Assembly: GCA_030591525.1 (NCBI GenBank)
Contig: JAUVAV010000021.1
Span: forward strand, 1 to 51,300
DNA: 51,300 nucleotides
Reading direction: 5' to 3'
Source: a candidate division FCPU426 bacterium
Lineage (GTDB): Bacteria; Oederibacteriota; JAAXVQ01; JAUVAV01
The translations under genes were made by a program, and so were the position numbers. Positions 3,620 through 32,120 of this stretch are shown piece after piece; positions within the stretch are counted from its first letter, which is position 1; each line of letters starts with the position of its first letter. Below the pieces are notes generated by a model. The model was not told where the DNA came from and made no database searches. It saw only the letters and a list, made by a program, of their open reading frames with translations.

Positions 3620-4006
3620 ATGGCGGTAACTAAAGAGGAAATGATTGACGTAATCGGCGGCATGACGGTGTTGGAAATATCCGAACTGGTTAAAAGTATG
3701 GAGGAAAAGTTCGGGGTTTCCGCGGCAGCGCCCGTGGTGATGGGAGGCGTAATGCCCGCAGCCGGAGAAGGCGAAGGAGCCAAGGCGGAGGAAAAAACTT
3801 CTTTTGATGTAGTCCTGAGCGGAGCGGGCGATAAAAAGATCCAGGTGATCAAGGTAGTCCGTGAATTGACCGGTCTGGGGCTGAAGGAAGCCAAGGACCT
3901 GGTAGATGCTGCGCCCAAGCCCGTGAAAGAGGGGGCTACTAAAGAAGAGGCGGATAGCCTCAAGGCCAAGCTGGAAGAGGTCGGAGCGATTGTCGAGGTA
4001 AAATAA
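3620..4006 (+). CDS. rplL: 50S ribosomal protein L7/L12
   Basis: A 128-residue L7/L12. It has the N-terminal dimerisation domain ([19 protein letters not shown]), a flexible Ala/Gly-rich hinge (about residues 35-55), and the C-terminal factor-binding domain with [20 protein letters not shown] and the terminal AIVEVK. A strong AAGGAGGG ribosome-binding site precedes it. The expected next gene, rpoB, is missing; pabBC begins 10 nt downstream instead. Confidence 0.98.
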
Positions 4007-4016
4007 ACTGGAACGT

Positions 4017-9300: not shown

Positions 9301-12300
9301 CACTGCTTGGGGATAAAACCGAGTTTGGGTACGGCAACGATATGATAGGCTGGGCGCTTTCCTTGGCAAAAAAAGCCGGTTTCAGTAACGGGGTGGCATT
9401 AATTTTCGGGTCAGGGATAGGCGTGAAATTAGTCCAAAAAGGGCAACCTGTGCAAGGACTTGATGAATGCGCGCATTTGCGGTGCATTATCAGTGAAAAG
9501 GTTAAATCTTTTTCCAATCATTCCCCGCCCGGCTCATTTGAAGATTGGGGGGGGAGCATTAGAGGGATTATGAGAATAGCCCGTGAATCAGGTCTGGTAC
9601 GAAAACTGGAAGAGTTAGGGGTAAAAGGCGAAATAGAAGTAAAACACATCGGATTGGCTGCCGCGGGAATAAATCCTGTGGATGGAAAGCCTCCTTTGGC
9701 GGAAGATGACGAGATCAGAAAGCTTGCCATGGAAGTTTGGGAGAAGGTCGAGCAGTATGAAGCGCAGCACATAATCCTCCTTCATCGACTGAGCGGGGAA
9801 ACCAAGTTTGCTTTTGGCGGAGGGACGACTGCCGGCAAAACAGGTGAGATTAGACAGGGGCTCCTGCAAACATACGTAAACCAATATTGCCAAGAGCGCG
9901 GGATTAAGCAAACCCTTGAAATCGCATTAGTAAAAGATGCCAATGCTGCCGAGGGAGCAGCGCTAAAAGCCTTGCAAATAGTCCGGGCATCTAAAAAGGA
10001 AGATGGAATAGGAGCAAATTTAAGTGCTGAAACCGCTCCCAGTCATATGATAGCCATATTAATCGGTTTCTTCCTGGCTGCATTGGGCCTAGCAGGGATT
10101 GTCTTGCCCAGTACGCTGGAACCGCTGGAAGCGTTGGGGTTGGTTTTCGCAGGACTAATAGGTTCTGTTGTGACATTTAGGTCTGTCATTATTGGAAAAT
10201 TAAAGCAGAAATTTCAAGCATTGAAAGGCATTGGCGGGATCGCCGCCGTTATCCTGACTCTTTGCGCGTTATTAGAGGGGACGGGTGTTCGTTCGGAAAG
10301 ATTAGGGTATTTAATAAGTGGAAAAGAGCTCCTGGAACGGCGGGCAGAGCTGGAAAAAGAATTTGGTATCATTTTCCCCTTTGCTCCTGAAAAAAATCTT
10401 AATCTGTTTCAAATGAAAATGGATTCCCTGACAACCAAAATTAAAATATTGCTTGAAAATCAATTGCCTTTGGAGCCGGTTTTTTTATTGTCTAACAGCT
10501 ACTTTCTTGAGCCGGCGGCGCCGCGGGTTAAAGAGGAAATTGAAAGAAGAAAAAAGAATAATCTTATGATATTAAAAGCGAAACTCATGCCGATCAATTC
10601 ATTTATGCTGAATTTACCGACCCAGACCCTCCGGGAATTGTCCAACAGCCTGGCAAAAGTGCATTCACATATTAGGGAAACGAATAAAAAGAATTTGCGG
10701 AATTTCATCACTCTTCGTCGGCAATATAATCTTGCTTTGAATCTCTACCCGGAACTTTTTCCGGAAGAAAAAGAAATCCGGAAATGGATGGAAGAAAAAA
10801 AGAAGCAAAATAATCAGAAGTTGCAGGAAATCGATTTGGATTTTCTTGAGGCCAAGGAGAAGGATGCAGTATTAAACTATTTATCCGAATTTGCGCCTGC
10901 AATGCTTGAAAAAACGATTGGTTATTTATCGCAAATTATCAATCCCCACGATGTCGCAACTTCACATGGGGGACTTTTATTGAACGATATAAAAAGATAT
11001 GTGCGGAATTTAATCCAAGAGCAGCCCGAGGGCGCACCGATTATGCTTCTCGACCTGATGGCCCAGGAAATAACCATGCAGAGCAAATATCCCGCCAATA
11101 TATCCGACCTGACAGCAGCGATTGCGGAGGCAATAACTGAACCGGAAATTGATGTTGTTAAATATATTGAAGATAAATATCCTTATCTCCAAAACCAGGG
11201 GATTCTAGTGAAATCCGGAGATGGAGTTGAGGCAGGCGAATATCTGCAGGCCTTATTTGGGTTGACGCAGGATTTGAAGGAGAAAATCACAAAAAATCAA
11301 AAATATCTGGATGCTATATTTTCTTCAGTTGTCGCGCAGGTAAGAAAAGAGATGGAAGTAGCGGAAAACCAAAGGATCGAAAGAATTGAATTAGTAGCCA
11401 AACAGATGTTATTTAGCGGCGAGGTGGTATCAGCCGAAGGGTTTGCCGGACAGATGAAGAAAAAATATAAAGTTTTTAGAGATTTTAAGAGCATGAACAT
11501 TGCAAGCGATATTTTGAAATTGAAACAGCAGAAAATAATTAATCCGAATGAGGTAGGGGAAGCCCTTGGCCGATTGCAGAATCAACATAAATTGAGCACG
11601 AAAACTTCAAGCGCAGGCGTGACTTATTATTTTCTGCCGGTTCGGGTTTTTGAGAAGCAAAGTGCATTATGGCGTTCCGGGCAAAAAAAATTCAAGCAAG
11701 CAGGGGAGCCGACAGCTGAACTGATAAAAGCGCATGAAAAAATACTGAAGGCCTACTTTAAGGCAGTGGGAGATATTAAAACCAGTTCAAAATTGAATCA
11801 GGGGGAAAGAAAAAAGTATCTGAAAATTGCAGCTAAAGAAATGAAAGATCAGATGAGTGGTTCCAAAAGCAAGCAGATCACCCCGAAATTCATGCGGAAA
11901 CTAAAGGGATTTTCGGCATTAGTCATCAATGCCCATTACTCGTTGGAGGATGTCGATAATTTGCTGAGATTTGCTGATGTGCATCAAGCGGTACGCGTGA
12001 GGGAGTATATTTATTTTTTATTACTACGCTCGAAAAGTGCCCGGACTGCGAAAGATATTGCGGAAGAAAGTGGATGGGACCTTGAGGTAGTCCAAAAATC
12101 CTTGAATTATTTAGTGTCGAATGAAGCTCGAGACACAGCCTTGGGCGGGGTGGGCAAGTCCATGGTTTTAGGCCAGGAAAGATATCAGTTCAATTGGCCC
12201 CAAAGCCGGCTTGTGTTAAACCTGCTTGATGAACCACATAAATATCATTTAAGCCAGCTTAATAAGGATTTCGAGCAATTACAGATTGAACTTTCCCGTA

Positions 12301-15300
12301 TCTCGGAAATGCAATACTATCTTGAAGACGACATTAATAAGGCATTTTTGAAAGCAACTGAAAAGATAATGCTTTTTGCAAGCAGTCTTGAGGATTTAGT
12401 ATCTTTCTATGGGGGACGTCAGAAAGAAACAGTGGGTAGGATTTCTAGGGGGGAAATTTCTTTAAAAGAATTATTATCCGGTGAATTAGAAGGCCAGGAA
12501 GGTGTGGAGGTATTTAAGGAATTTCTGAAATATTTAATCGCCCACCCGGATTATGTATTGGTAAGGGAAATTATGGCGGCGAGAAGCGATAATAAAAACA
12601 TTCTCGCTGACATAGATAATTTAGCGAAAACCGAAATACCTTTCACCGGGGTTATTGAAGCTTTGAAAGGAAGTATTAATAATATATTCAGGATGATATT
12701 TAAAGCCAAAAAGGCAGAGGTTATATCAACCGCTAATCAGCCATTGAATTATTTTGGAACTTTGGCAAACTTACTGGCAGCCACGGTGATGCTGGGGATG
12801 GTCTTTTCTGGCGCTCCTATACTTTTGGGATTTATCCTGCCGTATTTTGCCGTGGCCTGCGCAAAAGTAATAATGGTTTATCGGCTGGGGAATAAACTGT
12901 CCGCCGATGAACGCGGTTTATTTAAGCCAATAGCCGGCTATGATCCTGTGACCGGACTGGTAAAGGATGCCCGGGGAAGTGTGTCAATGAGAGCTCACTG
13001 GCTGGTGCGGGCGCATGATCAGTACGCCCACCGCTGGGCGCAAAGAATTTCCGATCCTATCATGAGATTAACCGGGTTTCAGTCTGTTGAAGATTATGCC
13101 TGGCAGGCCCGGGACAACAAGAAGAGCTTTGGTTATTACTTGTGGAACGTGTTTGTCTGCGAGATCCTGGCGCATGGTCTGGATTTTGTCGCAGTGCCCC
13201 TAACCCGGGCGCAGGCTTTCCTGCTCTCGCCCCGGCAGGGCGCGCTCTTTAGACTAATAACTCAGTCCATCATCTTGAGTAGCCTGACCGGCCTGGCAGT
13301 GATTATTACCGCGTTGGGCGTATTTGGAATAATATCACTTTCCCTGGCCATACCGGCTTCTGTCTTGCTTTTGATCCTTATTACTCCTTTCTGGATTTAT
13401 TCTTTAAAATATCGCCAATTTTCCGAGCAGATGATTGAACCTTTGCCAATTGAAATTACTGAAGGTCAGGCTATGGAAATGTGGCAAAATATGGATGACA
13501 ATTATAACTTTTCATTTGTTTTTAAAACTGAGGTTCTTCAGCAAATATTTAGCCAGGCTCCCGGCTTATTGAAAGAAAAGATCATCGTCCTGGATCAATA
13601 TTCTTTATTAAAGAGAAATCCATATAATCCCCTCTGGCATGCTAATTATCTTCCGGCTTTATTATTGCTGCCTTTGTCTGTGATTAAATTAGCAGCGCCT
13701 AAAATAGACAAGATAGAAAGTGAGATAGTTGAAGATGAAAGAGATAATAAACAGCTAAGATTGGCAAAAAATGTATCTGTAATTATAGACAAAACCACGG
13801 CTGAATTTGCCCGCCAACAGGAAAACATGCTTAAAGAATTGGGCATAGAACTGCAGCTTAAAGACAAATATCAGGATGTTTTTATCCAGCCTTGGAACAC
13901 GCGGATGGAGAAAATCAATTATTTGTTAGATAACGGCATTTATCCCCACCCGGAAATCCTGCGCTATGAAATGCGGGTGATAGAATGGGCCGGCGATACA
14001 TTATTGCTTAGGCAAAAACAGGCGGAGAGGCCGGATGGAGAAGACATAGCCGATAGAGAGTATGAAGCAATAATGAGAGATTTTGCCGGGCGGATTGCCC
14101 AATTTGAAGAAATAAAAATGTTGTCTTCAAGCGGAGAAAAGCCTTTGGCATTAACGTCAAATTTGAAAATTGATGTGCCGGAAGAGAGTGAAGCCGAAGG
14201 GGAGTTATCTGCGGAGGAAACAGCGGCTGCCATCGAACAAAAATCAGGTTTAGAGGTCAGGGTGCTCCGCAGCATTGTGTTCTCTCCCTGGAATATGGCT
14301 GTTTTTAAAGCTCTAAGCACGCCGGTTATTTTGATGCATTTGATGATATTGCCCCTTGTGCCGATGATCTTAAGCATATCTGGAATCATCACATTATCCC
14401 TGCCCTTGCTCTTGTCGCTGGTTGGAATAGGGGTAATTACGGTCGCGCCCCTAGTGTATTTTCTGCTGAAATATAGAGAGGTGTTAACTGAGGAAGAAGA
14501 ACTCCCGCCGGCAGTAATCTCAGATGCATTGGCTGATAAAATCCGTGTTTCATTAGAGAAAGAATTTAAGATGGAATTCCCATTTCCCAAGGATGAATTC
14601 CGTGAGGTGTTTGGCCAGGATATAAATCTTTTAAGAAAAAAAATCAAGTATTTGCAAAAGCATGATTTGTTAATGTCCGGAAGAACCTTTGGGTATTTAT
14701 TGGGATTCCCCTTTGCGCTGATTAAAAAAGTGGTGCCGGAAATTCAAGGAGTAATAGCAATTGAGTATATTGCTGACAATGTTACGAAAGTTATGAGAGG
14801 CGATCGAAAAATAGAGTTGACCGACGCAAGGGAAAAACGCCTGGAAGTTAAGACGTTTGGATTATTGGTGAAACGCTGGGGGGAATTTATTCAAGCAAGG
14901 CCGGAGTTCTTTGAGAAAATATTAGGAATAAGTTTGGAATATGAAGACCCCATCGAAGATTTATGCAGAGTTAACCTGGGTAAAGTGCATCACGAAGTAT
15001 TTACCCAACCGGCAGATATAGTGGCTAAAAAGATTAATATTTTGATAAAAAGCCAACTCTCCTTTGAGCCTGAGTTTAAAGCGGTCGAATTGTTGGATTT
15101 TGAGCTGGATACTTTGGAAAAAGCTTTTGGCATATGGGACGGGGAATCATTTAAAGGCAGCGATGCGAAAAAAGTAGAACAATTCAAAAATGTCTGTGAG
15201 ATATCGGAAAGCAATAGTGGTTCGCTTAAAAGTGAGGAAGCACTAAAACTATTACGCCCGGGTGTTGCTTTAAATGCTGAGCAAGTGGCCGCTAAACTGG

Positions 15301-18300
15301 ATATCAGACCCAGGCGCGCCCAAATGGTATTAAATGACTTAGCCCAAAAAACCAAAGCAGGCGAAGCGGGATATTACGTTGAAACCAGGCTGGATAAACA
15401 AGGCAAGATCGTCTATTACGTCTTCGGGGCCGAAGTAAAAAATATTTTTCAACAATTAGATGAGAAATTACGAGAAAAGAACCCGGGGAAAAAACATATT
15501 GCTGGTTTGACGAAGAACTTTATTTTTGCCGCTGAAGAAATGATTAGCTCAATTGCAAACAATGAACTCTCTCGCAACTCTGTAAATGAATTTCGTCAGC
15601 GATACAAAAATGAATTGTGGATGGATATAGAAATATTAAGGAAAAACTTAGAAAAAAATAACCAATTAAAAAAGGCGCTGGGTGACGGAATTGATAAACT
15701 AGAAGCTATTCAAAATTTTATTGAGGGTTTTAACCGGGGCGCGGATGCGGAACCGGTGTTAGGTGATAAGCCAGCGGTGTCAGGCACTGGGTCAGAAATC
15801 AGCAGGTTGAAAAAAAAGGTGCTCCGTGCCATTGTATTCTCTCCTTGGGTTAATGCGGTTTTTCGCGCGCTGAGCACTCCGGTTAATTTAACGGTTTTGA
15901 TCATGCTGCCTATCCTACCGTTATTCTTCGCTTTTCTGGGAATTATCTCATTGTCTTTGCCAATGCTCGTAGCCGCGGTCGGAATAGCGATAATTACGGT
16001 CGCGCCCCTAGTGTACTTTCTGCTGAAATATAGAGACCTCTTTAGCGAGGAATTGGCCATCTATGAAATCGAACCTGCCGAAATTACGGATGCCATGGCC
16101 GGCCAGGTACGGAAAGAATTGGAAGAAGAATTCAAAATAAAATTCCCATTTGAAAAGGAACACAGCCAGGATGTGTTCGGCCAGGAGAGAGATATATTGC
16201 GAAAAAAGATCAAACTCCTGATTAAACTTGAAAAGAACATTGGTGTATATAAGGCCGATTGGCCTTCGGTTTTCATGGAAAAGCCGCTGCTGATTGAGTC
16301 CCTGAAAGTGCTTGAAATAGCGGTAGACATGATTGAAGAGAAATATTCAAGCAATGCAAAACTGTCTAATTATTCAAGTGTTGGAAAAAGAATGATATAT
16401 GAAGAGGCCTTAACCCGGGCCAGGGGACAATTTGCCGCAAATCAGAAAAAAATACTGAAGGAGTTGGGCATAGAACTGTTATACATGCCAAAAGAAGTGC
16501 AGAGGGCAGAGAAATATTTAGACGTGCTGTTGCAGCCCTGGCCTTTATTGATAAAAAAAATCGAAATTTTAAAGCAGCACGCCATCGAGCCGTATCATTA
16601 CTTGCTGAGCTATGATCCTGAGATACTTGAGCGGGCAGCGCCGGATATTGCGCAAAGAGCTATGCAAGTGGCGCTAGCTGAAGGAAAAGGGAGTAGCCCA
16701 GTTTGGGTAGGCATGCGTGGAGAGAAGGAACTAAAAATTGCCAACGAAATTGAGCGTAGGGTTTTAGACCTTTTAGAATCCGGTAAAGCGCTGACAGTAC
16801 GACAGATAGCCGAAGCATTGGATATTAGCCAGGCGGGAACGCAGAGGACGCTTAATTGGCTGATTCAGGAAACCAGGCCGGGATTAACTCATTATCTGGA
16901 AACAAAAATTGCCAGTAATAAAAATGTCATTTATTACGTGTATGGCGCAGACGTTCTGACGATTTCCGCGCAGCTTTTGGGAAAAATTGAAGCAATAAAC
17001 CAAAAATTATCCCAAAGAGAAAAAGTTGATGAAAAGCTAAAACGCCAGGCAGTGAATTTACTGGAAGATTATCTCCAAGCTGCGGATGGGCTGTTGCTTG
17101 CCACGCTCAATAACCAAGTGGTTTCCAGCTGGGAACGCTGGGATTGGGTTGTGTGGAGGGCAATAGGATATAATTTGAGCAAGCTAAAGGAAAACCAGAA
17201 AACAGCGTGGTGGGAAGCGGCATTCAAACCTTATGGGGGGTGGGTGGAATATCTTGATTTAATTGTGAAGAGTATGGATGAAGGTAAAACGACTCCTGAA
17301 AGAAAACAAAATTGGAAAAAAATCAGGATTTTATTCGCTCACGAAATCCTTCCCCATGCCGGCCTTTTAAAATATGATTTGGATGTAATCGAATGGAAGA
17401 TTAAAGAAATAAAAAATCTCCAGGCAACAGCCGGGAGTGTCGGGGAAGAAGTGACTGATGAGCAGTATGCGGGAATATTTAAACCCGTGGTAAGAATGCT
17501 GTTGGTGCTGCCCAAAATACGCAAAGAGATGAAAATACGCAAAAAGTTGAAAATTCGGCCGCTGAACGCCGAGCAGCTTGCAGCACAATTAAGCCTTCAG
17601 CACGATCTAGTGCAAAGCGCGCTGAATTACCTGGTCGCCCAAAAGCAGGTGGAGAAAAACTCACAAGGAGCTTATTCTCTTTCTGAAGCAGAATTGGAAG
17701 CTGAGCCGGATTATGCGGCCATGAGCGATGTGGCGGTTAAAAGCCGGATGGTTAAGGAAAAAGAATACCTTCTCGAACCATCTCCGAATAATATTTATTA
17801 TAAAATTGCCTGGACGGCGAGTGCTTTATCTTTCCTTAATTATATCATCATAACCGGGATCAATGAGCTGAAGCATTTGGCTAATTACAATGTGCCGGAA
17901 ATGGCCCCGTGGATTGACATGACACTTTGGGCAACAGCATCCTATCTGGCACTTGCGTTTATCATGCTTGTTTCTACTATCGGTTATGAAAAAGGCAAGG
18001 TGTCAATAGTTTTAACAGGTTCGGCCCTATTTGTAGGTTATCTTGCTTGGGCTTTTACTTTCAGCATAACCTTTGTCACCGGCGGCTTGGTTATTCTGGG
18101 ATTTTTGGCCATGCTGGCGCCTTTTTACCAGCGTCCGGAAAAAATCATCAATGCTGGGGATGACTATCTTAAAGCGGGTCAAAAGAGCTTTGCCATCGCC
18201 ATGCTTTCTTTCGTGGTTGCAGTATTATCCGTGTTGGTTAAGGCTTTTATAATTTCGTGGTTAGGACTTTTCGTTGCCGTTTATTTTCTGTTTTTTATGG

Positions 18301-21300
18301 CTGTAATGCTAAGCAAGAATCGAGCCGTACTCAGCGCCTTAGCCGGAAAAGGCGAGGGGCATAAATTGATCGCGCTGCTTGAAAAATATCAGGACTTGAG
18401 CTTAAGCAATGAAGCCATCTCTGACACCATTTCCCAAGTTGCTACTGACCACACTATCGCCGTGGACAAGCCAATAGTCGGGCAGATGCCGGTTTTCGAG
18501 CAATATATGGAATTAGCCAAGCTGAGAATGCAGCGCACTTTAATCAAACTGCGGCTGCCGGGCTTCCTGGCCAAAGCCATAGCTTTTGCCTGGGAACCTG
18601 CGGGCGGACTTATCTACTTTTTATATTATGAATTGGGCAAGGCATTAAAGAGAAATCCATTGCTGATAACGGTTATGAAGGGTATTGGTTTTGGTTTAGC
18701 CGCAGCCGGTATATTAAGCGATGTGCTATCCGGATCCAGGGTGCCTTTATCTGGTGGTTTATTTATTGCCGGGATTATATGGATCGCCACAGCTTATTTT
18801 CTGGATAATAGTTTATTCCCAATCCGGCAATTTAGTAAATTGAATAAAGCTTATGTAAATGGATTAATCACCTATAAGGCGCTGGCTAAAGCTCTGCGGC
18901 ATTGGGACAAGAGTACTAATAGCTTAATCGTGGTGACCGTAATAGTAGTCAGTGTCATCACATTAGCCTTATATTTCGTGCCGTTAACGATTTTAGCGGC
19001 CGTCATGCTAGCCTGGGTTTTAATGATAAGGGCGGATTCCCGGGTGAATAAGCAAAAAATCGCAAGTGCTTATAAAGAATTAATCCGCGAGGCGGTTTAC
19101 CAAGCCTGTGCCCAGCAACCACTCAGGATTTCGGATATGGTAAGCCTGGTCGGTGTGAGTGAAGACGAGCTTTTTGAAGCTGTGGATTACTGGAAAAAGA
19201 ACGCGGCAATGCTGCAGAAAGATGAAAATAAAATGAAACCGGGCAAAGGTTTACGTGAAGATATGCAGATTGATAAGCAGGTTTTTTATACTGCGTGGCA
19301 ACGCAGCGAAGCCGATCTGGCGCAGGAAATCTCTCGTTTATCGAGCGATACTGATATGCAGCAGGAGCTTGAGGCGCATGCTAAAGAACATTCTCTATTT
19401 CCAGCGGAAATTAAACGGGAAAATCCGGGACTTTTTGAAAAGCTAAAATCCAATCAATTTCCGATTGTCTCTCCTAAAGATGGAGTGACTTATATTTGGA
19501 ACCGGCATCAAATCGAAGGCGTGATGCAGAACTATTATGATTCAGGCAAAAATGATGAGGAAATGCCCGCGATCATAACCATTGATGAGAACGGCATGCC
19601 TATCAAGCGGCTTATGGAACCCAATCAAGGCGTATTTTCCCGGGCGATCGAAGAATTGCGAGCCAACCGGATTTTCAATGCGTTAGAATTACCCTTTATA
19701 TACTTTCGCTTAAAGCTTGCCGGTTTGCCCGGCAATATGCTTTACATGATGAATTACCGAAAAGACCGCATGAGACAAATTGCCCAGGCCAGATATGGAA
19801 AGGATTTTGAGGGTTTTCCAGTTTCAGAGGAAGAAAGAAAGGCTTTTGCTTTTATGGGCATGAGCAAATATATTGAGGAAATGCCGAAAGACCGGGCTGC
19901 CATGGAGGATGTCCAGGTTCGCAACGGCTTGGCTGAGACGGTTATTAAGGCCGGGTTAAAAGTTTACTGGTACTTTGACAGCGAGAAAGGAAAATTTATA
20001 TCCATTATGCGCGGCAATATCGAAAAGCCGTTTGAAGGTGAAGATTTAACCAAGGGCAATATTCCCATGCCTTTTATTCGAATCAAAGAAGAGAGTGGAG
20101 GAAATAAATGGATCCAGCTTCCGAATAGCCAATTCTGGCTTAATCCCGACCTTTCCATGCGGGTGCTGGCCTGGCTTATTTCCAAGCAAGCCAAGCAAGA
20201 AGGTGGAAATATACACATTACCAACTTGCCGGGCGCTGATTTGGTTACGCACGTAGCCGCGAAGAAATTAGACATTGAAGGCGACATATGGACTGCGGGC
20301 ACGAATGAGTATAGTACGGAATTGGATTTTGATAAAACTATGCAAACCTTGAAAGAAAACGACCCGAGTTTTAAACCGCTCTTGGAAGGTTATGAAAAAG
20401 AAGGCGGAGTCGCTGTTTTCAGATTGGAGCCGGATATGAAAGAGGCTTTGGGTTTGGGAGACACCGGCAAACTGCTGCTGGCGCTTGATTTTAGCGATAA
20501 AACTACATTTGCTTTGGAAATGACTTCCCAACCAGGCAATGGCCGTGATGCCTTATATGCCACGCATACGACGCTGGATAAAAGTTTGGGAGAGGTGCTT
20601 GCGGCTGCCAAAGAGAATAAAGGGGTGGCAGTGATTCACGGCGACCACGGCTCGAGTGATGATGTTTCCACTCCCGGCCATACCAAGAACAAAGTGATTT
20701 TCACGGTGGTGGATTATCGCAGTGGTGAAGAAAAGTTAGTGAGCCTGGAAGTCCCGGAAAACCATGTTGTTGCGCAAGCGGATATCGCGCCCACTATTTT
20801 AAAATTTTTAGGGATAGCCCAACCTGAAGATATGACCGGTAAAAATCTCGCAGGAGAAAAGGAAAAGGGGGATTTGAACACGCCGGTTTTCTGGGTGGTT
20901 CTGGATGGTTATGCCCAAGGTCCGGGAGATGAAAATGACGTAACCACTGAAGCGAGGGAAATTGGTCTGGCGCCTTTGTTAAAACGCCTTTTCGATAATC
21001 CGGCAAGCATTCCAATGCAAGCTTCGGGCGGATATGCCGGGTTGCGGGGAATAGGCTTTCAAAAGTTAGAAGAGGATGGGTACGAGCTTTTAAACCGGGA
21101 GGAAATGCTGAAAAAAATCAAGCATGACATGTCCCTGGATAAAAGCGCCCAGGTGGAACAAAAAATTGATTTAATCAATTATGACCGTGATAGCAAGGGA
21201 ACCCTGAATTTAATCGAGGCTGAGTATGAGCTTAGAAATAATCCGTTTTTGAATGACAAATATTTCGCGATAATGCGAACTCATACGGATGGCCCCATTA

Positions 21301-24116
21301 AAGCCATTTATTACGCGGATCCTATTCAAGAAGGAAGCACGGAGTATAATCTGTCTACCATGGGGACCGGGCGGATAGTCAGACAATCTGTCTTAACCAT
21401 AGAAGACCGGATTCTTGACAGGTCATTTTTTAAAAGTCCGGCTGTTCAAAATGCAATTCGGATGGCCAAGCTCAGGGGATACGCGCATTTTAGCGGGCTC
21501 CTGCAGGAAATGAGCGTTCATGCCTCCAGCCGCCACCTCTATTATATGATCCAACATTTCCAGGAAAAAGGCATTGATAAATTCATGTTTGATATGGCCA
21601 GTGACGGAAGGGATGAGTCGTCGCAGTACGCCATAGAACGCGTCAGACAATTGAAACAGGCTCTGGATTATTTTGGGATTACGGATTATGAAATTAATAT
21701 TCGCGGAAGAGAACAATGCTTTGACCGGGGAAACAACTGGCCTATTACCGAAGGATTTTTGAATGAACTCATGTATGGCAGTAAGTTGAAAATCGATACG
21801 GCTATATTTGAAGCCAAGGTCGAATCACAAAAAATTACTGGTCTGCTTAGAAGCGTAATCCCGAATAACATACTTGAATCTCAATTATTAAAAGGAAGCA
21901 AAGGTATTCAAGCAGCGCCAACGAACCGGCTGGTGGATTTCAAGACCATGGAAGCCGATATACTCAGGAAAGCCGGACCTAATGAACGTTATTTTATTCC
22001 CTTGAATCGTATTTTCAAGCGTTTTCCCGGGCTGCAACTAAAAATGATTTCCATTGGGCCTGTGTTTTTATCTGGGTTTGCGCGTGCGGGCGCAGATGAT
22101 GCGGAATTGGTTAAAAAAATTAGGGCACATACGGACGATATAAAAGAAATACTGGGGCGGATTTTACCGGATAATAGGGGCGATTTGAAATTCACCGAAG
22201 AACTTGAGATAGGTTTGGATGTTTTTCCGAAAGATAGATTTAAAATAGAAACGACGGAAGATCAAATTACTAAAATTCTGATGCCAAAGCACCTCCTCTG
22301 GCTGCTGGTAGATTTAAGCGAAGCGGAAACAACTCCTGAAAAGTCACTGGTGAAAAGCCGTTTGAAAAACCAACTTGCTGTCAATATGATACAGTATTAC
22401 TGGAACCAGTATCAATTAAGTCTTCTGGATAAAAAAGAGTATAAAGGGTGGATATCCTGGGCACAGCAGCTGGAAGACAGGATTCTCAATATTCAATCCT
22501 GGTTTAATTCAGAAATGAAGAACTTAACGGCTGCTCCTATTGTTGTAGATGAGAATGAGAATGCGTTTATGCCTGCGGGGTTGATTGTCAATCTAATGGT
22601 CCGAAAATCATTGGAAAAAATGGATGCGGACCAGCGCCAGGAGTTGAAGCAGAAGCTGGAAATTCTTATCCAGGAGCAGCTCGATTCGGGCTCTGACTTG
22701 AATATTAAAGAAGGATTACTGGCAACCCTGACTACGCTGGCGAATAATGATAATAACTTGCTGAAATTACTTGGTGTTTTCAAACAATCAATCGCAAAAC
22801 TTGAACCAGCGATGCAGGAAATAGAAACAGCCAATATGCTCAGTAGTTTGCTGGGTATCCTAAGCGGTAAGGCTATTGCGGCACTTGGAGAAGAGGACGC
22901 AGCGGCAGAAACGCAATTGTCGCGGACATACACTATGACCGCAATCCCAGAGGCGGCGCGAGAAATTATGCGGGAAGAAGCGCTCCAGGCCTTGGAAGAT
23001 GACCTGGCCTTGGCCTTGTTGCACGCTCTGGATAAATCAAAGAATAAAAATATAACGGATACGATCACCTTGGAGAGTAAACACGGCGCGGTTTTAGAGC
23101 GGAAGATTGGACGGATGAGCGCCAACACCTATCAGAAATCGCTGGCAATGGGAGAGTCCTGGAAGGACGGAAAAATATTCGCGGCGTTGTTGGGATATAA
23201 AAATATCCACCTCGAGTTGAATGGAAAAAAAGTAAGTATAGCCAAGCCCAAGTTGGCTGATTTTAATACTAAAGATGAGAATATTACGAATAAAGAGATT
23301 GATAAAAGTATTCCTGAATATTTGAATTCCGGAGTAATTGAAGGTGTTCGGGTGGCAGTGTTTAACCGCTTGCCGGCAGAGCCGGGATTGGTTGCGGAGG
23401 CAACAAAGTTTGCGCGGTTGCAGGCCAATGTCCTGAATTGGATGTCCAGGCAGAAAATTTTCCCGGGACGTGTGCAAAAGCAATACCAAGCGCGCGCTAA
23501 TCTAAGCGCGTTGGATATAAGTTTGCCGAGTATAATTCTTCAATTGCGGGATAAGCTGCCCGATTATCATTGGGGGATTTTAATAAAATTGGAACAAATG
23601 AATAGCGACAATCCATTGGATTTCATAAATTCATCACATCCCGTGGCTAAAGCTTGGCGGCAATTGGCTAATGCAAATACCCCGAAAAAACGAGCACGGG
23701 CTAGCGCTGTATTTGCCAAGCGCTTGTATAACCTGATGTATCCTGATCAAGTTGGAGATAAAAACGCAGCAGAAATAGAGACGTGGGAGAAGGATCAGCA
23801 GGCGCGTAATCTGCTGATTTTTTCAAGACTGGTAAGAGAATTTTGCGAAGACTGGACGGATTTGGGCACCATTGACACATCCTCTGAGCTATGGAGTAGT
23901 TTTAAGCTATGGAGTAGTTTAAAAACCGATATTGAGAAAATTACCGGTGATCATATTATCGCAGCACCAAAGTCATTAATTACCGAATTGGGCTTTAAAC
24001 ATGTATTAGGCGCTTTGGTGGATGCGATGGAGAAATTGGACATTGTTGTGAATTATCATAAAATCAAGATGTTTTTGAGGAAAAACCTGAGGCAATCCAC
24101 CAAGGTGGCAGCGTAA
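6306..24116 (+). CDS. giant multidomain secreted/membrane protein (5,936 aa) with kinase-like and permuted phosphoglycerate-mutase-like segments
   Basis: One uninterrupted 17.8-kb frame. Residues 1-49 look like a signal peptide (basic RRK, hydrophobic core, cut after TWA). Residues ~75-435 form a domain with HDLHCNFEVQ (H93, H96) and ITGGFHAEKVL (~405), vaguely like EreA/ChaN/TraB proteins. Hydrophobic spans follow at ~613-685. Residues ~866-1225 resemble ROK/hexokinase-type ASKHA kinases (GFDVGGQG, GSGIGVKLV, FAFGGGTTAGKTG). More membrane spans lie at ~1246-1320, ~2150-2180, ~2312-2370, 2653-2710, 3172-3240 and 3832-4245. Winged-helix-like segments recur (~1697, ~1898, ~2982, ~3485, ~3735, ~4260). 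Residues ~4415-5235 resemble iPGM in permuted order. The last 700 residues are unrecognised and mostly helical. The gene stands alone behind its own promoter. Giant genes are reported from Omnitrophota; the function is unknown. Confidence 0.85.
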   Translation: MMFLNNQLNMAPPRLLLISGWHNPRRKIWTKIISMLISITFILPVITWAFDPGSYAISGGQVAFNHNPIKISGKLGKVIQTFQGDERLVVYVHDLHCNFEVQNNIAKMINALAGRHGLKLVNVEAASEAIDVSKLSTFPVDSIKKEVAEYFMKQGKITGAEAYASTGRHSIRLEGIEDETLYQDNRKTVMKFLNYESQGYICDLREMLNELKRDIYNQVLKDFDAPKQSFRQGDIPLLKYCVHLHKSASRIKANTKAYTNFNIYILERNDLFSEAVDSDKLYKEIDTLDQRLRARLYTTPEQEELDVLAHRLDILEKLLNISAAPEELAEYRANPEAFKVKPYIDYITRHDEREEFSLSSEVYALNRYLEDVKAFYQVADIRSLAFVDNTLAQMDKHNTKISMLITGGFHAEKVLAELKRRGVSYLSVKPRLKHQDIVNPYFSLLRNQRTPLEKLLAQNQNILGIETAFRTGTQALSKPKQLFCTALDIMPKMGVLAAGIKKGITSKTALAKYFNTIIKPWTNNDASQMPAFDLAATKIDPESSVNSVEFTNGPIAVFSPRAIAAEYINRVQLQISGMYANLMTKGVSATELSQLVNSGSKEPKFGFLKNYRVMIPAGLAMAAGFIVLAAGGTTISAGLVVILGLGLGLGLMVFLQSAKSNRAVSFTAFGLFAIGLLFTATGSGVEEKLGEENVSASKTIQAALGLFVEAERKDVGYIQAEKAMIKALEFSGKNVVTVRLTSKNGRFVELNIPDPKIINNAKITQAVYRRYIAMIYAQAVALGNGPSNQLYVEVFDNKNKERAEIEEALTSVIQEYFNEIGFPLLSKANAGEPVEVLKKPADFKAEGEEGLLGDLPEAGPGTSESLITLGFDVGGQGMEMKVLKDGKDITDELFPESSNEGELRKNDDSLRYRYTFPHLTDGGDGMEFKTRLVSFVKEVKDAVEQKSGKVDGVFINSAGTPDYANNEMTSLGEISRGFNDKNMAAELKHASGFIGELKTLLGDKTEFGYGNDMIGWALSLAKKAGFSNGVALIFGSGIGVKLVQKGQPVQGLDECAHLRCIISEKVKSFSNHSPPGSFEDWGGSIRGIMRIARESGLVRKLEELGVKGEIEVKHIGLAAAGINPVDGKPPLAEDDEIRKLAMEVWEKVEQYEAQHIILLHRLSGETKFAFGGGTTAGKTGEIRQGLLQTYVNQYCQERGIKQTLEIALVKDANAAEGAALKALQIVRASKKEDGIGANLSAETAPSHMIAILIGFFLAALGLAGIVLPSTLEPLEALGLVFAGLIGSVVTFRSVIIGKLKQKFQALKGIGGIAAVILTLCALLEGTGVRSERLGYLISGKELLERRAELEKEFGIIFPFAPEKNLNLFQMKMDSLTTKIKILLENQLPLEPVFLLSNSYFLEPAAPRVKEEIERRKKNNLMILKAKLMPINSFMLNLPTQTLRELSNSLAKVHSHIRETNKKNLRNFITLRRQYNLALNLYPELFPEEKEIRKWMEEKKKQNNQKLQEIDLDFLEAKEKDAVLNYLSEFAPAMLEKTIGYLSQIINPHDVATSHGGLLLNDIKRYVRNLIQEQPEGAPIMLLDLMAQEITMQSKYPANISDLTAAIAEAITEPEIDVVKYIEDKYPYLQNQGILVKSGDGVEAGEYLQALFGLTQDLKEKITKNQKYLDAIFSSVVAQVRKEMEVAENQRIERIELVAKQMLFSGEVVSAEGFAGQMKKKYKVFRDFKSMNIASDILKLKQQKIINPNEVGEALGRLQNQHKLSTKTSSAGVTYYFLPVRVFEKQSALWRSGQKKFKQAGEPTAELIKAHEKILKAYFKAVGDIKTSSKLNQGERKKYLKIAAKEMKDQMSGSKSKQITPKFMRKLKGFSALVINAHYSLEDVDNLLRFADVHQAVRVREYIYFLLLRSKSARTAKDIAEESGWDLEVVQKSLNYLVSNEARDTALGGVGKSMVLGQERYQFNWPQSRLVLNLLDEPHKYHLSQLNKDFEQLQIELSRISEMQYYLEDDINKAFLKATEKIMLFASSLEDLVSFYGGRQKETVGRISRGEISLKELLSGELEGQEGVEVFKEFLKYLIAHPDYVLVREIMAARSDNKNILADIDNLAKTEIPFTGVIEALKGSINNIFRMIFKAKKAEVISTANQPLNYFGTLANLLAATVMLGMVFSGAPILLGFILPYFAVACAKVIMVYRLGNKLSADERGLFKPIAGYDPVTGLVKDARGSVSMRAHWLVRAHDQYAHRWAQRISDPIMRLTGFQSVEDYAWQARDNKKSFGYYLWNVFVCEILAHGLDFVAVPLTRAQAFLLSPRQGALFRLITQSIILSSLTGLAVIITALGVFGIISLSLAIPASVLLLILITPFWIYSLKYRQFSEQMIEPLPIEITEGQAMEMWQNMDDNYNFSFVFKTEVLQQIFSQAPGLLKEKIIVLDQYSLLKRNPYNPLWHANYLPALLLLPLSVIKLAAPKIDKIESEIVEDERDNKQLRLAKNVSVIIDKTTAEFARQQENMLKELGIELQLKDKYQDVFIQPWNTRMEKINYLLDNGIYPHPEILRYEMRVIEWAGDTLLLRQKQAERPDGEDIADREYEAIMRDFAGRIAQFEEIKMLSSSGEKPLALTSNLKIDVPEESEAEGELSAEETAAAIEQKSGLEVRVLRSIVFSPWNMAVFKALSTPVILMHLMILPLVPMILSISGIITLSLPLLLSLVGIGVITVAPLVYFLLKYREVLTEEEELPPAVISDALADKIRVSLEKEFKMEFPFPKDEFREVFGQDINLLRKKIKYLQKHDLLMSGRTFGYLLGFPFALIKKVVPEIQGVIAIEYIADNVTKVMRGDRKIELTDAREKRLEVKTFGLLVKRWGEFIQARPEFFEKILGISLEYEDPIEDLCRVNLGKVHHEVFTQPADIVAKKINILIKSQLSFEPEFKAVELLDFELDTLEKAFGIWDGESFKGSDAKKVEQFKNVCEISESNSGSLKSEEALKLLRPGVALNAEQVAAKLDIRPRRAQMVLNDLAQKTKAGEAGYYVETRLDKQGKIVYYVFGAEVKNIFQQLDEKLREKNPGKKHIAGLTKNFIFAAEEMISSIANNELSRNSVNEFRQRYKNELWMDIEILRKNLEKNNQLKKALGDGIDKLEAIQNFIEGFNRGADAEPVLGDKPAVSGTGSEISRLKKKVLRAIVFSPWVNAVFRALSTPVNLTVLIMLPILPLFFAFLGIISLSLPMLVAAVGIAIITVAPLVYFLLKYRDLFSEELAIYEIEPAEITDAMAGQVRKELEEEFKIKFPFEKEHSQDVFGQERDILRKKIKLLIKLEKNIGVYKADWPSVFMEKPLLIESLKVLEIAVDMIEEKYSSNAKLSNYSSVGKRMIYEEALTRARGQFAANQKKILKELGIELLYMPKEVQRAEKYLDVLLQPWPLLIKKIEILKQHAIEPYHYLLSYDPEILERAAPDIAQRAMQVALAEGKGSSPVWVGMRGEKELKIANEIERRVLDLLESGKALTVRQIAEALDISQAGTQRTLNWLIQETRPGLTHYLETKIASNKNVIYYVYGADVLTISAQLLGKIEAINQKLSQREKVDEKLKRQAVNLLEDYLQAADGLLLATLNNQVVSSWERWDWVVWRAIGYNLSKLKENQKTAWWEAAFKPYGGWVEYLDLIVKSMDEGKTTPERKQNWKKIRILFAHEILPHAGLLKYDLDVIEWKIKEIKNLQATAGSVGEEVTDEQYAGIFKPVVRMLLVLPKIRKEMKIRKKLKIRPLNAEQLAAQLSLQHDLVQSALNYLVAQKQVEKNSQGAYSLSEAELEAEPDYAAMSDVAVKSRMVKEKEYLLEPSPNNIYYKIAWTASALSFLNYIIITGINELKHLANYNVPEMAPWIDMTLWATASYLALAFIMLVSTIGYEKGKVSIVLTGSALFVGYLAWAFTFSITFVTGGLVILGFLAMLAPFYQRPEKIINAGDDYLKAGQKSFAIAMLSFVVAVLSVLVKAFIISWLGLFVAVYFLFFMAVMLSKNRAVLSALAGKGEGHKLIALLEKYQDLSLSNEAISDTISQVATDHTIAVDKPIVGQMPVFEQYMELAKLRMQRTLIKLRLPGFLAKAIAFAWEPAGGLIYFLYYELGKALKRNPLLITVMKGIGFGLAAAGILSDVLSGSRVPLSGGLFIAGIIWIATAYFLDNSLFPIRQFSKLNKAYVNGLITYKALAKALRHWDKSTNSLIVVTVIVVSVITLALYFVPLTILAAVMLAWVLMIRADSRVNKQKIASAYKELIREAVYQACAQQPLRISDMVSLVGVSEDELFEAVDYWKKNAAMLQKDENKMKPGKGLREDMQIDKQVFYTAWQRSEADLAQEISRLSSDTDMQQELEAHAKEHSLFPAEIKRENPGLFEKLKSNQFPIVSPKDGVTYIWNRHQIEGVMQNYYDSGKNDEEMPAIITIDENGMPIKRLMEPNQGVFSRAIEELRANRIFNALELPFIYFRLKLAGLPGNMLYMMNYRKDRMRQIAQARYGKDFEGFPVSEEERKAFAFMGMSKYIEEMPKDRAAMEDVQVRNGLAETVIKAGLKVYWYFDSEKGKFISIMRGNIEKPFEGEDLTKGNIPMPFIRIKEESGGNKWIQLPNSQFWLNPDLSMRVLAWLISKQAKQEGGNIHITNLPGADLVTHVAAKKLDIEGDIWTAGTNEYSTELDFDKTMQTLKENDPSFKPLLEGYEKEGGVAVFRLEPDMKEALGLGDTGKLLLALDFSDKTTFALEMTSQPGNGRDALYATHTTLDKSLGEVLAAAKENKGVAVIHGDHGSSDDVSTPGHTKNKVIFTVVDYRSGEEKLVSLEVPENHVVAQADIAPTILKFLGIAQPEDMTGKNLAGEKEKGDLNTPVFWVVLDGYAQGPGDENDVTTEAREIGLAPLLKRLFDNPASIPMQASGGYAGLRGIGFQKLEEDGYELLNREEMLKKIKHDMSLDKSAQVEQKIDLINYDRDSKGTLNLIEAEYELRNNPFLNDKYFAIMRTHTDGPIKAIYYADPIQEGSTEYNLSTMGTGRIVRQSVLTIEDRILDRSFFKSPAVQNAIRMAKLRGYAHFSGLLQEMSVHASSRHLYYMIQHFQEKGIDKFMFDMASDGRDESSQYAIERVRQLKQALDYFGITDYEINIRGREQCFDRGNNWPITEGFLNELMYGSKLKIDTAIFEAKVESQKITGLLRSVIPNNILESQLLKGSKGIQAAPTNRLVDFKTMEADILRKAGPNERYFIPLNRIFKRFPGLQLKMISIGPVFLSGFARAGADDAELVKKIRAHTDDIKEILGRILPDNRGDLKFTEELEIGLDVFPKDRFKIETTEDQITKILMPKHLLWLLVDLSEAETTPEKSLVKSRLKNQLAVNMIQYYWNQYQLSLLDKKEYKGWISWAQQLEDRILNIQSWFNSEMKNLTAAPIVVDENENAFMPAGLIVNLMVRKSLEKMDADQRQELKQKLEILIQEQLDSGSDLNIKEGLLATLTTLANNDNNLLKLLGVFKQSIAKLEPAMQEIETANMLSSLLGILSGKAIAALGEEDAAAETQLSRTYTMTAIPEAAREIMREEALQALEDDLALALLHALDKSKNKNITDTITLESKHGAVLERKIGRMSANTYQKSLAMGESWKDGKIFAALLGYKNIHLELNGKKVSIAKPKLADFNTKDENITNKEIDKSIPEYLNSGVIEGVRVAVFNRLPAEPGLVAEATKFARLQANVLNWMSRQKIFPGRVQKQYQARANLSALDISLPSIILQLRDKLPDYHWGILIKLEQMNSDNPLDFINSSHPVAKAWRQLANANTPKKRARASAVFAKRLYNLMYPDQVGDKNAAEIETWEKDQQARNLLIFSRLVREFCEDWTDLGTIDTSSELWSSFKLWSSLKTDIEKITGDHIIAAPKSLITELGFKHVLGALVDAMEKLDIVVNYHKIKMFLRKNLRQSTKVAA
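14262..17000 (+). repeat. two tandem intragenic modules in the giant gene
   Basis: Two consecutive modules, starting near 14262 and 15819 (period about 1,557 bp), encode the same order. First comes a membrane block (VLRSIVFSPWNMAVFKALST versus VLRAIVFSPWVNAVFRALST), then a charged helical region (EFKMEFPF versus EFKIKFPF) and a winged-helix segment ending in YYVFGAEV or YYVYGADV. The stretch coding for ITVAPLVYFLLKYR is nearly identical in DNA (14435 onward and 15992 onward). A more diverged module precedes them (from about 13240). Confidence 0.8.
19560..22010 (+). other. permuted iPGM-like region of the giant protein (residues ~4415-5235)
   Basis: The C-terminal half of a cofactor-independent phosphoglycerate mutase comes first. 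It has MNYRKDRMRQI (~4483), DLVTH (D4645/H4649), HGDHGS (D4780/H4781), PGHT (H4792) and APTILKFLGIAQPEDMTG. The N-terminal half follows: VVLDGY (D4867), GSTEYN with T5012 at the nucleophile position, and MGTGRIV. The substrate-binding insertion domain comes last: HFSGLLQEMSVH, DGRDESSQY (~5100) and DRGNNWPITEG (~5140). All metal-ligand positions I can align are kept, while the usual serine is threonine. Confidence 0.7.
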
Positions 24117-27689: not shown

Positions 27690-30600
27690 ATGGCACTGGA
27701 CAAGAGTCCATTGATCAACAAATGGAGCAATGTCTGGCTTGTCTTAGGATGTTTTATTTTTTTTATGGCTTTTCCTAATCTCATCTATTCCGCAACTCCA
27801 GCCGCGCAGGGTTGGATAGAACCGGAAACCTCAATTATCTCACAAACTCAGGATTATGAATATTTATTGTATGTAACCTCCGATGATCCGGTCAATAAGC
27901 TTTCTATTCATATTCCCAGTGGATGGGCAGTACCAAATACGCCGGTATCCAATACTCAGGACGGCTCGGTTTCGTTTTCCGGGACACAGATCGTAGTAGA
28001 TTATTCACTTGACCCTCTTTTATCGGGAGTTGTCGACAGTATTACCATGACTGCCACAGCGCCAGGAACCGGGGGGGATTATTACTGGAGTGCGTACCTG
28101 AATGATGGATCATATCAAGTGACTACCTTTCCAACTAAGCAGCAATTCGTGGAGGTTTTTACTTATACTGCTACAGTTACGCCGACATACACTGCTACGC
28201 CTACAGTTACACAAACTTATACGGCCACGCCGACGGCTACGCTAACGTCCACGCCGACGGTCACGCCAACTTATACGGCCACGCCAACGGTCACGCCAAC
28301 GGTCACGCCAACGGCCACGCCGACAGCTACGCCGACAGCCACGCCGACGGCCACGCCGACCTCCACCGCGACACCGACAAGTACGCCGACCTACACGGCC
28401 ACGCCGACAGATACTCCGACATACACGGCTACGCCGACAGCTACGCCGACGGCCACGCCGACGGTTACTCCGACTTATACGGCTACTCCGACGGCTACGC
28501 CGACGGCCACGCCGACAGATACTCCGACATACACGGCTACGCCGACGGCCACGCCGACCTCCACCGCGACATCGACAAGTACACCGACTTACACGGCCAC
28601 GCCGACAGATACTCCAACTTACACGGCTACGCCGACGGCTACACCGACGGCCACGCCGACAGGTACTCCGACATACACGGCTACACCGACGGCCACGCCG
28701 ACAGATACTCCGACCTACACGGCTACGCCGACGGCTACACCGACGGCCACGCCGACAGATACTCCGACCTACACGACTACGCCGACGGCCACGCCGACAG
28801 CTACTCCGACTTACACAGCTACGCCGACAGCTACGTCGACCGCTACGCCAACCTACACGGCCACGCCAACGGCGACGCCGACCTACACGGCCACGCCGAC
28901 GACTACGCCGACATACACGGCCACGCCGACGGCTACGCCGACATACACGGCTACGCCGACAGCCACGCCGACGGCTACGCCGACCTACACGGCTACGCCA
29001 ACGGCTACACCAACCTACACGGCTACGCCGACAGCCACGCCAACCTACACCGCGACACCGACAAGTACGCCGACCTACACGGCTACGCCAACCGCGACGC
29101 CGACCTACACGGCTACGCCGACGGCGACGCCGACAGCGACGCCGACCTCAACCGCCACGCCAACGGCGACGCCGACATACACGGCCACGCCGACGGCTAC
29201 GCCGACCTCAACCGCGACGCCAACCGCGACCCCGACGGCGACGCCAACCGCAACCCCGACATACACAGCCACGCCGACGGCGACGCCGACCTCAAGCGCG
29301 ACGCCAACCGCGACCCCGACGGCTACGCCAACCGCAACGCCGACCTACACAGCCACGCCGACGGCGACGTCGACCTACACGGCCACGCCAACGGCGACGC
29401 CGACCTACACAGCCACGCCGACAGCTACTCCGACCTCAAGCGCGACGCCAACTGCGACCCCGACCTATACGGCTACGCCGACAGCCACGCCGACGGCGAC
29501 GCCGACCACAACCGCGACGCCGACGGTAACGCCAAGTGCGACCCCAACGGTAACGCCAAGTGCGACCCCAACGGTCACGCCGACGGCGACCCCGACCTAC
29601 ACGGCTACGCCAAGTGTGACACCGACGGCTACCCCGACGGCTACCCCGACGGCGACACCGACACACACGGCTACTCCGACGACCACCCCAACATCAACGG
29701 CGACGCCGACCGCGACCGCGACGCCAAGCGCGACCCCAACGGCCACGCCAACGGCCACGCCAACGGCCACGCTGACATACACGGCCACACCGCCGGATAC
29801 GCCGACACACACGGCCACGATTACGGCAACTCCGACATACACGGTCACGCCAACGGCGACTCCGACCTACACGGCGACGCCGACCTACACAGCCACGCCA
29901 ACGGCTACGCCGACACACACGATTACACCAACGGCGACTCCGACCTACACGGTTACGCCAACCGCTACTCCGACCTACACGGCCACGCCAACCGCTACTC
30001 CGACCTACACGGCCACGCCAACGGTTACTCCGACCTACACGGCCACGCCAACGGCTACGCCGACCTACACAGCCACGCCGACGGCCACGCCGACCGCGAC
30101 CCCAACCACGACGCCGACGGCCACGCCGACCTACACAGCCACGCCGACGGCCACGCCGACCGCGACCCCAACCACGACGCCGACAGCTACACAGACCAAT
30201 ACCTACACAGCAACCCCAACTTTAACCTCTACGGCTACCAGTACACCAACCATTACACCGGCGGCGGATGCCTATATCCAACCTAACATCTCGAATCAAA
30301 ATCAGACTCAAAATTATGATTATACGGTAATTGCCACTTCGGGTGGTGATATCCACACTCTCTATATAACAATTCCTTCCGGGTGGGCGGTTCCCCAGAC
30401 CCCGTGTTCCAATCTGCTCGGCGGGTTAGTATCTTTTTCAGGCAATCAAATAGTAGTAACGTATTCTCCTCCCTGGTCGGCCGGTTCCTTTGACAGTATT
30501 ACTTTAACGGCCACTGCGCCGGGGGCCGGGGGAACATATTATTGGAATTCATATCTCAATGATGGAACTTATCAAACCAGTACACCGGTTACCAAAAGCC

Positions 30601-32120
30601 AGGCGGTAATCGTGTTTACCGCCACGGCTACGATTACCCCCAGCTTTACGGTTACTGTCACCCCCACTTCTACTTTTACTGCTACTGCCACTTCCTCCTA
30701 TACGGTTACGCCGACACCGTTTTATACCTCAACTTCTACCCCGACGTTTACTTGCACCGCTACCTTTACGCCTACACCTACGCCTACCAGCACACCCTCT
30801 TTAACCTCTACACCTACTCCTTCAAGGACCATAACTTCTACACCGACTATTACCTCAACGCTTACATTTACCTTCACCACTACTCCCAGTCCGACAATTA
30901 CGCCTACGCATACTGTAACCCCGACTAAAACGCCGGTTCCGGGCTACCGGCTTTTCCTCCTGGCCCCTAATGAATATTTTACCGTCGGCACATCTCCGGG
31001 ATATGCCGGAAGTGTTACCACTACCGTAGCTGGTTATCCGGTTCCCATAACCATCCGGGTTTTGGAGGACAATGGTCTGGTCGCTTCCACAGTAAATGAT
31101 ACCATCAGAGTCAGTTATAATGGAAATCCCGATTATATCCGTGATCTTCCGGCAGAGGTAACTTTATCCGGCGGTCAGGCGGTCATTAATCCGCGTTTCA
31201 TGGAACCGAATATCACCTATACTATCCATGCTTCTGATTTATCTCATCCCGAAATTAAGGACGGAAGTTCCCGGCCAATTCCATGCGTAACCGGAAGCTT
31301 GGCGCAAAATCCGTATGTGTTGGTTGAGCATGCCTCCTTAGCGCCGACTACGGCGATGGAGGGAGAACCGGATATCGATATGCTTTCGCTGCGGTTGCGG
31401 AACCCTAATTCCAGCGGCTCTGCCGTGTACGAACTACACGGCTTAACCGTAACCGTGCAAGACCAGGCCGGAGGCGGGTTACCCGCCAACGGAGTCTTAA
31501 GCAGTTTAACGGTTTGGGATAGCACTACTCAGAGCGGATTGGTGAACTTAAATTCCCTCTCGATATCAAGCCGGATATATATTCCTTTCGGAAGCGGCCA
31601 GGTGCTTATTTATCCTGAAGGTACGTATGAAATTGGGCTGAGAGTCAATATTGCCTTACATCCCGCTCATTCGCATTTCCGCTTGGCAATGGCGGCGCAA
31701 ACCGATATAGCCGCGATTTTTCTGGACGGGACTCCCATGCTGGCCAGAGCGGAAGAGGGGGATGCTTTTCCCATGGCTTCGGACGCCGTAAATATCCGGC
31801 CGCGGGGCCTGAATGAATCCTATATAAATTACCCCAATCCCTTTGCCGCCGGCCGTCAGAGCACAACGATTGAATATTTTCTGGAAACGGATTCCAAGGT
31901 CAGTCTAAAACTGTATAATATTGTGGGAGAATTGGTACTGGTGCTGGCGGACGAAGAAACTCAACCGGCGAGTCAGAACCTGTACCGTTACTCATGGCAG
32001 GGACGGAATGGCTATGGCCAAATAGTTTTAAACGGGGTTTATTTTGCAGTCTTGACGATAACCCCCGCGGCCGGCGGGGATACCCAACAGTTGGTTCGGA
32101 AAATTGCGGTTATTAAGTGA
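27690..32120 (+). CDS. large secreted Thr/Pro-repeat surface protein with FlgD/T9SS-like C-terminal domain
   Basis: A 1,476-residue protein. Residues 1-35 are a signal peptide. Residues ~36-155 form a globular domain ([36 protein letters not shown]), repeated at ~860-975 ([24 protein letters not shown]). Between the copies lie about 700 residues of (TPTxTA)n, such as [18 protein letters not shown] second Thr/Pro linker (~976-1081) and Ig-like segments follow. The C-terminal ~90 residues ([43 protein letters not shown]) match the FlgD-Ig/type IX sorting-domain pattern. The Thr-rich rod is probably a glycosylated surface stalk. The AGAAAGGAA ribosome-binding site is good. The downstream PorV-like gene suggests linked export. 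Confidence 0.85.
28160..30250 (+). repeat. 2.1-kb low-complexity repeat coding Thr-Pro units
   Basis: A long array built from short related units (for example CTACACGGCCACGCCGACGG) in steps that are multiples of 6 bp, so gain or loss of units keeps the frame. Codon choice drifts along the array from mixed ACT/ACA/ACG to mostly ACG/ACC, as expected for expansion by slippage or unequal recombination. Long open frames on the opposite strand here are artefacts of the repeat. Confidence 0.9.

Follow-up and report, generated by a model that had tools for sequence, protein, structure and literature searches.

By sequence comparison, we identified a full-length cofactor-independent phosphoglycerate mutase (iPGM) in circularly permuted order, at residues ~4445-5186 of P0001, a giant protein of 5936 amino acids with 22 hydrophobic segments that is encoded in one continuous frame at positions 6306-24116 of the window (the entire 51,300-nucleotide stretch of DNA from a candidate division FCPU426 bacterium that was analyzed here; all features of this gene are on the plus strand). 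Under the explanation that we favor and regard as probable, this region is one complete permuted iPGM fold within a multi-pass giant, a divergent phosphotransferase or phosphatase acting through a threonine phosphoenzyme that arose by in-frame duplication and subsequent loss.

The order of the halves is directly visible in the frame. The original prediction held that motifs of the C-terminal half of iPGM precede those of the N-terminal half, and all of them lie where it placed them within the single open frame of P0001: MNYRKDR (residue 4482), DLVTH (4645), HGDHGS (4778), PGHT (4790) and EDMTG (4841) are followed by VVLDGY (4864), GSTEYN (5010) and MGTGRIV (5019) and by the insertion-domain motifs DGRDESSQY (5100) and DRGNNW (5140). 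The iPGM ancestry that it proposed was likewise borne out by the profiles, given that Pfam, TIGR01307 and a profile built from 39 canonical iPGMs all match the permuted segment and the whole profile is tiled. Specifically, Pfam finds Metalloenzyme (E 3e-8) and iPGM_N (E 4.5e-27, in two pieces) with their order swapped, and TIGR01307 matches in three stretches with E 3.3e-45 and 154 bits, below its equivalog cut-off of 330. Positions 253-354, 410-507, 4-54 and 59-216 of the canonical profile correspond to P0001 residues 4478-4581, 4749-4848, 4859-4913 and 5009-5166, respectively; the piece 4-54 is weak alone (domain E 0.1) yet in register. The best phmmer match in PDB is the iPGM of B. stearothermophilus (1ejj; E 1.6e-26), the native residues 246-373, 419-508 and 58-209 of which occur in that order along P0001 in three permuted stretches. 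The possibility that two half-domains of different enzymes are juxtaposed here is ruled out, as every segment is iPGM and together they cover a single profile with no overlaps.

The permuted region extends from residue ~4445 to ~5170-5186 (at its widest, positions ~19638-21863). Its first half, from native ~217 to the C-terminus (19638-20855), carries R4485, R4488, K4561, D4645, H4649, D4780, H4781, H4792 and the EDMTGK motif, and its second half, from the native N-terminus to ~216 (20883-21803), carries D4867, T5012, H5072, R5102, D5103, R5135 and R5141. Homology thus covers the entire two-domain length of the enzyme, and the canonical order, in which the phosphatase N-part, the transferase insertion and the phosphatase C-part follow one another, is replaced by one in which the C-part comes before the N-part. 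The native C-terminus would have been fused to the native N-terminus via a short linker (20856-20882, around residues 4851-4859) and the chain opened at native ~216/217. The alignments at the ends place the opening at this point, inside the transferase domain and away from all catalytic residues, and therefore nothing large is missing; the inter-domain hinges appear in the alignment to have been left uncut. The genome is a draft of 91 contigs, in which a misassembly could conceivably have put two iPGM halves together in reverse order, but we consider such an artefact highly improbable: the frame is open over 17.8 kb with even composition, the junction is a plausible linker, the genome has no canonical iPGM that could have been shuffled, and a second permuted enzyme is found on another contig.

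The metal-binding positions, which had been predicted to be intact, are so for all six Asp and His residues (D4867, D4645, H4649, D4780, H4781 and H4792), and the substrate ligands H123, R153, D154, R185, R191, R261, R264 and K336 are retained in full (8/8). The predicted replacement of the nucleophile was also confirmed, with Thr5012 occupying the position of the native Ser62, so that 14 of the 15 metal or substrate ligands are retained; the roles of these residues are those known for the B. stearothermophilus enzyme (1ejj), and several native numbers were confirmed on the phmmer alignment. By contrast with this near-complete retention (14/15), only 51 of the 117 other invariant columns are preserved, that is, 65 of 132 invariant columns in the alignment to 12 canonical enzymes (Fisher p=2e-4, for an invariant set defined from 12 taxa only). 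Furthermore, the distance between D12 and S62 is 145 residues in P0001 against 50 in each of the 32 canonical enzymes measured, and that between D403 and D444 is 135 against 41 in the same 32; therefore, two insertions of ~95 amino acids flank the active site. The first (96 aa; 20259-20546) lies between the metal ligand H407 (H4649) and the D444/H445 strand and has no counterpart in any of these 32 canonical iPGMs, and the second (93 aa; 21045-21323) immediately precedes the nucleophile loop. The two are unrelated by sequence, and the possibility that one is a copy of the other was rejected.

Together with the lost family residues, the insertions suggest a changed substrate or regulation, and the enzyme may act on another substrate, as had been proposed, a reading that is compatible with the Ser to Thr change, the ~95-aa insertions and the many lost invariant residues. 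Most likely, the predicted center would bind two divalent metals and Thr5012 would form the phosphoenzyme, with a phosphoglycerate-like compound or another phosphate ester as the substrate. Catalysis is supported by the preferential retention of the ligands over the other invariant positions and by the precedent of the Sphingomonas alkaline phosphatase (SPAP), which shares the D/T/D/H and D/H/H metal sets and has Thr89 as its nucleophile (PMC3145672); the other embedded enzymes described below that keep their active sites, such as the enolase, provide further support. It is weakened by the report that E. coli alkaline phosphatase does not tolerate the Ser to Thr change (PMC3145672) and by the mean pLDDT of 66 of the predicted model. 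Moreover, the loss of half of the invariant residues and the branch of ~7 changes per site that leads to the P0001 domain in the iPGM tree, on which placement failed, may point to decay or to a role in binding only. Accordingly, the main rival to the enzymatic reading is that the permuted fold is non-catalytic, a structural, metal- or phospho-ligand-binding module (sensor or adhesin) of a giant surface protein. Such a role, which we hold to be rather unlikely but worth serious consideration, would fit the changed nucleophile and the private pair of insertions next to the active site, as well as an embedded PGK of degenerate appearance in a sister giant, and the giant ORFs of Omnitrophota have been proposed to act in adhesion (PMC10066038). 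It is at odds with the biased retention of the catalytic ligands and with the intact active-site motifs of the embedded enolase and TIM.

A metal center shared by the two halves is plausible in the predicted structure. In a first AlphaFold2 run, the permuted segment reached a pLDDT of 62 and a pTM of 0.64, and a second, better aligned run gave a moderately confident chain with a mean pLDDT of 66 and a pTM of 0.70. The input consisted of the sequence from the window and of fragments of canonical enzymes, unpermuted and each entered in its own row, and therefore the alignment held no covariation between the halves. For aligning the split fragments, subsets in which every anchor was in register were sought, a choice that selects on the expected anchors. 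All Foldseek matches of the model with a probability of 1.00 are iPGMs, from an aligner that is sequential and cannot superpose both halves together. As far as the model goes, it and these exclusively iPGM matches do not contradict a shared center.

Among the genomes searched, the permuted arrangement was seen in this one only. A second complete unpermuted copy, one of the two pieces of counter-evidence named in the original prediction, was looked for in both the protein and the genome and was not found, nor was any second copy or stray iPGM half in P0001 or elsewhere in the genome. Among 45 genomes of the phylum, the permuted iPGM is present in this one only. In a search of genome contigs, 32 loci from other genomes are all canonical where both halves are seen, no permuted form was detected in viral contigs, and a literature search yielded no natural circular permutation of iPGM. 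In a relative of the same genus (G017), the N-terminus is 88% identical, the ORF lacks the ROK-like part and ends at 980 aa, and the counterpart of the C-terminal region begins at a contig edge, so that this relative may or may not carry a permuted iPGM. The free-standing mutase of the genome is a canonical aPGM (L104, 416 aa), which rules out that the permuted domain is a paralog of the housekeeping mutase.

The architecture of P0001 does not support the description of the protein as secreted. Residues 28-51 form a hydrophobic, signal-peptide-like or signal-anchor-like segment with an ITWA motif, and ~21 further hydrophobic segments precede the iPGM domain in a simple Kyte-Doolittle hydropathy scan, which points to a multi-pass protein; as the parity of the segments is uncertain, the iPGM domain may lie on either side of the membrane. 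The most likely product is a membrane-anchored enzyme of iPGM ancestry. The initial segment and a conserved N-terminal domain (to residue ~470) span positions 6306-7745. Downstream, a ROK/hexokinase-like domain (8868-10040) can be recognized by eye only, from DVGG, GND, GSGIG and GGG motifs, with no match in profile searches. Three related copies of a ~300-440-aa module that combines hydrophobic segments with a winged-helix-like part follow (13212-17120); they are mutually 24-57% identical and are direct evidence that parts of P0001 were duplicated internally and in frame. The C-terminal domain (residues 5202-5936; 21909-24113) is common to another giant of the same genome, L100, and in part to two or three more. 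In the vicinity of the gene, a fusion of a chorismate-binding enzyme and a class IV aminotransferase (PabB-PabC type; 4017-5840) lies directly upstream, and a 1476-aa ORF without a Pfam match, in a region of GC 0.65 with strong AT/GC skew (27690-32120), directly precedes a TPR-containing ORF and a SpoIIE/HATPase/HAMP signalling gene (33744-36173).

The N-terminal ~470 residues are a lineage-specific domain. About 16 giant ORFs of this genome begin with it, and seven relatives within the family and order have 9-20 matches each, whereas the remaining 37 genomes of the phylum have none; the ORFs that it heads reach ~9,500 aa. Pfam, NCBIfam and PDB gave no match. The shared N-terminus (6306-7745; paralogs L050-L079) has the form S.W..P.R..TK.I.LLISLTFIFPYLTWAF and is followed by a ~400-aa domain. 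By eye only, this region resembles an extended signal or anchor joined to a TraB/ChaN-like domain; for the latter, there was no profile match.

The giant family appears to have captured further glycolytic enzymes in addition to iPGM, one of them also rearranged, so that the giant proteins of this lineage seem to be assembled from metabolic enzymes that have been reshuffled. The giant L091 (C78:1-13000, minus strand) contains a type II GAPDH with SCNTTG, a PGK that is canonical in order and looks degenerate in sequence, and, at residues 2802-3384 between similar hydrophobic segments, a tandem of divergent 293-aa TIM units in the order C-N-C-N. The two copies are 76% identical, match the TIM profile in the order 56-249, 2-56, 70-248 and 2-63, and both retain GNWK, GHSE and YEPRWAI. 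This series allows two readings, a pair of permuted TIMs or a single canonical TIM in the middle with half a TIM on each side, and both present a duplicated stage that can give rise to permutation. Another, degenerate TIM-like stretch of L091 (~3820-4090) is apparently opened at a different point. L100 (C81:3-4676) is open at a contig edge, beyond which its own N-terminus lies, and is counted among the giants because of the C-terminal domain that it has in common with P0001; it encodes a class II FBP aldolase, partial at the contig edge, and an enolase that retains every active-site motif inspected. Both this ORF and that of L091 run off their contigs, which suggests that the edges of C78 and C81 may belong to one gene; no N-part of the aldolase was detected by Pfam at the C78 edge. 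A further member of the family, L101 (C37:494-8488), has PEP-synthase-type ATP-grasp and phosphohistidine domains with a TSHAG motif, and no PEP-utilizing C-terminal domain was detected in it.

Because free-standing PGK, TIM, enolase, aldolase and aPGM are present in the same genome, the embedded set is additional. Each of seven activities (FBA, TIM, GAPDH, PGK, PGM, enolase and PEP synthase) is represented by a domain embedded in the giants of this genome. It is conceivable, albeit unlikely, that the giants comprise a parallel, partly permuted set for lower glycolysis or gluconeogenesis, separate from the housekeeping enzymes and working as a membrane-tethered pathway or a surface enzyme array. 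We attach still less probability to the permuted domain being a true phosphoglycerate mutase in such a tethered set: the seven activities, the retained substrate ligands and the lack of another iPGM in the genome would agree with this role, but a housekeeping aPGM and free-standing PGK, TIM, FBA and enolase exist, the embedded PGK is degenerate and the aldolase partial, and the enzymes are spread across several contigs. In addition, the giants of relatives also hold many non-glycolytic domains, among them SecY, PGM/PMM, phosphorylase, OEP and Rhomboid. The SecY is a second, divergent copy in canonical order inside large ORFs of 1773-9337 aa in several genomes of the family (G016:C4, G017:C13, G018:C297 and G014:C62).

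Returning to the favored reading of a divergent permuted enzyme, the domain probably arose when a giant ORF that was still growing underwent an in-frame duplication and the outer halves were lost. This route is supported by the three related modules of P0001 and by the 293-aa tandem permuted TIM unit in L091, which would be a second instance of this process in the genome; the tandem-repeat stage is still visible there, so that the route from in-frame duplication to circular permutation is open to direct study. With the hinges uncut and the old termini fused, the permuted iPGM also tests which chain connections this enzyme needs.

Several known systems bear comparison with P0001. The giant ORFs of Omnitrophota, including those of Ca. 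Velamenicoccus archaeovorus, similarly encode very long multi-pass proteins; they are described as having large extracellular parts and few annotated domains (PMC10066038). Embedded glycolytic or permuted enzymes, which the passages of that account considered here do not mention, occur in the genome of P0001, and concrete domains can now be assigned to giant ORFs of a kind described as poor in recognizable ones. Members of the alkaline phosphatase superfamily with a threonine nucleophile (SPAP and NPP) resemble P0001 in that a Thr joins two Asp and one His as the metal-2 ligands; unlike P0001, they lack the transferase domain arrangement of iPGM. Phosphopentomutase, another member of this superfamily with a Thr nucleophile, gives a marginal profile match (E 0.0015). 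The aPGM (ApgM), exemplified by L104, belongs to the same superfamily and catalyzes the same reaction but represents a distinct subfamily, with canonical order and a stand-alone gene. Compared with iPGM itself (GpmI; TIGR01307; PDB 1ejj and 2ify), P0001 has swapped halves, Thr in place of S62 and two ~95-aa insertions, is without half of the other invariant residues, and sits in a 5936-aa membrane protein. We do not class it as a regular iPGM because the domain order and Ser62 depart from those of the family, whereas both domains of iPGM and its complete metal sets (D12, D403, H407, D444, H445 and H462) are present in P0001.
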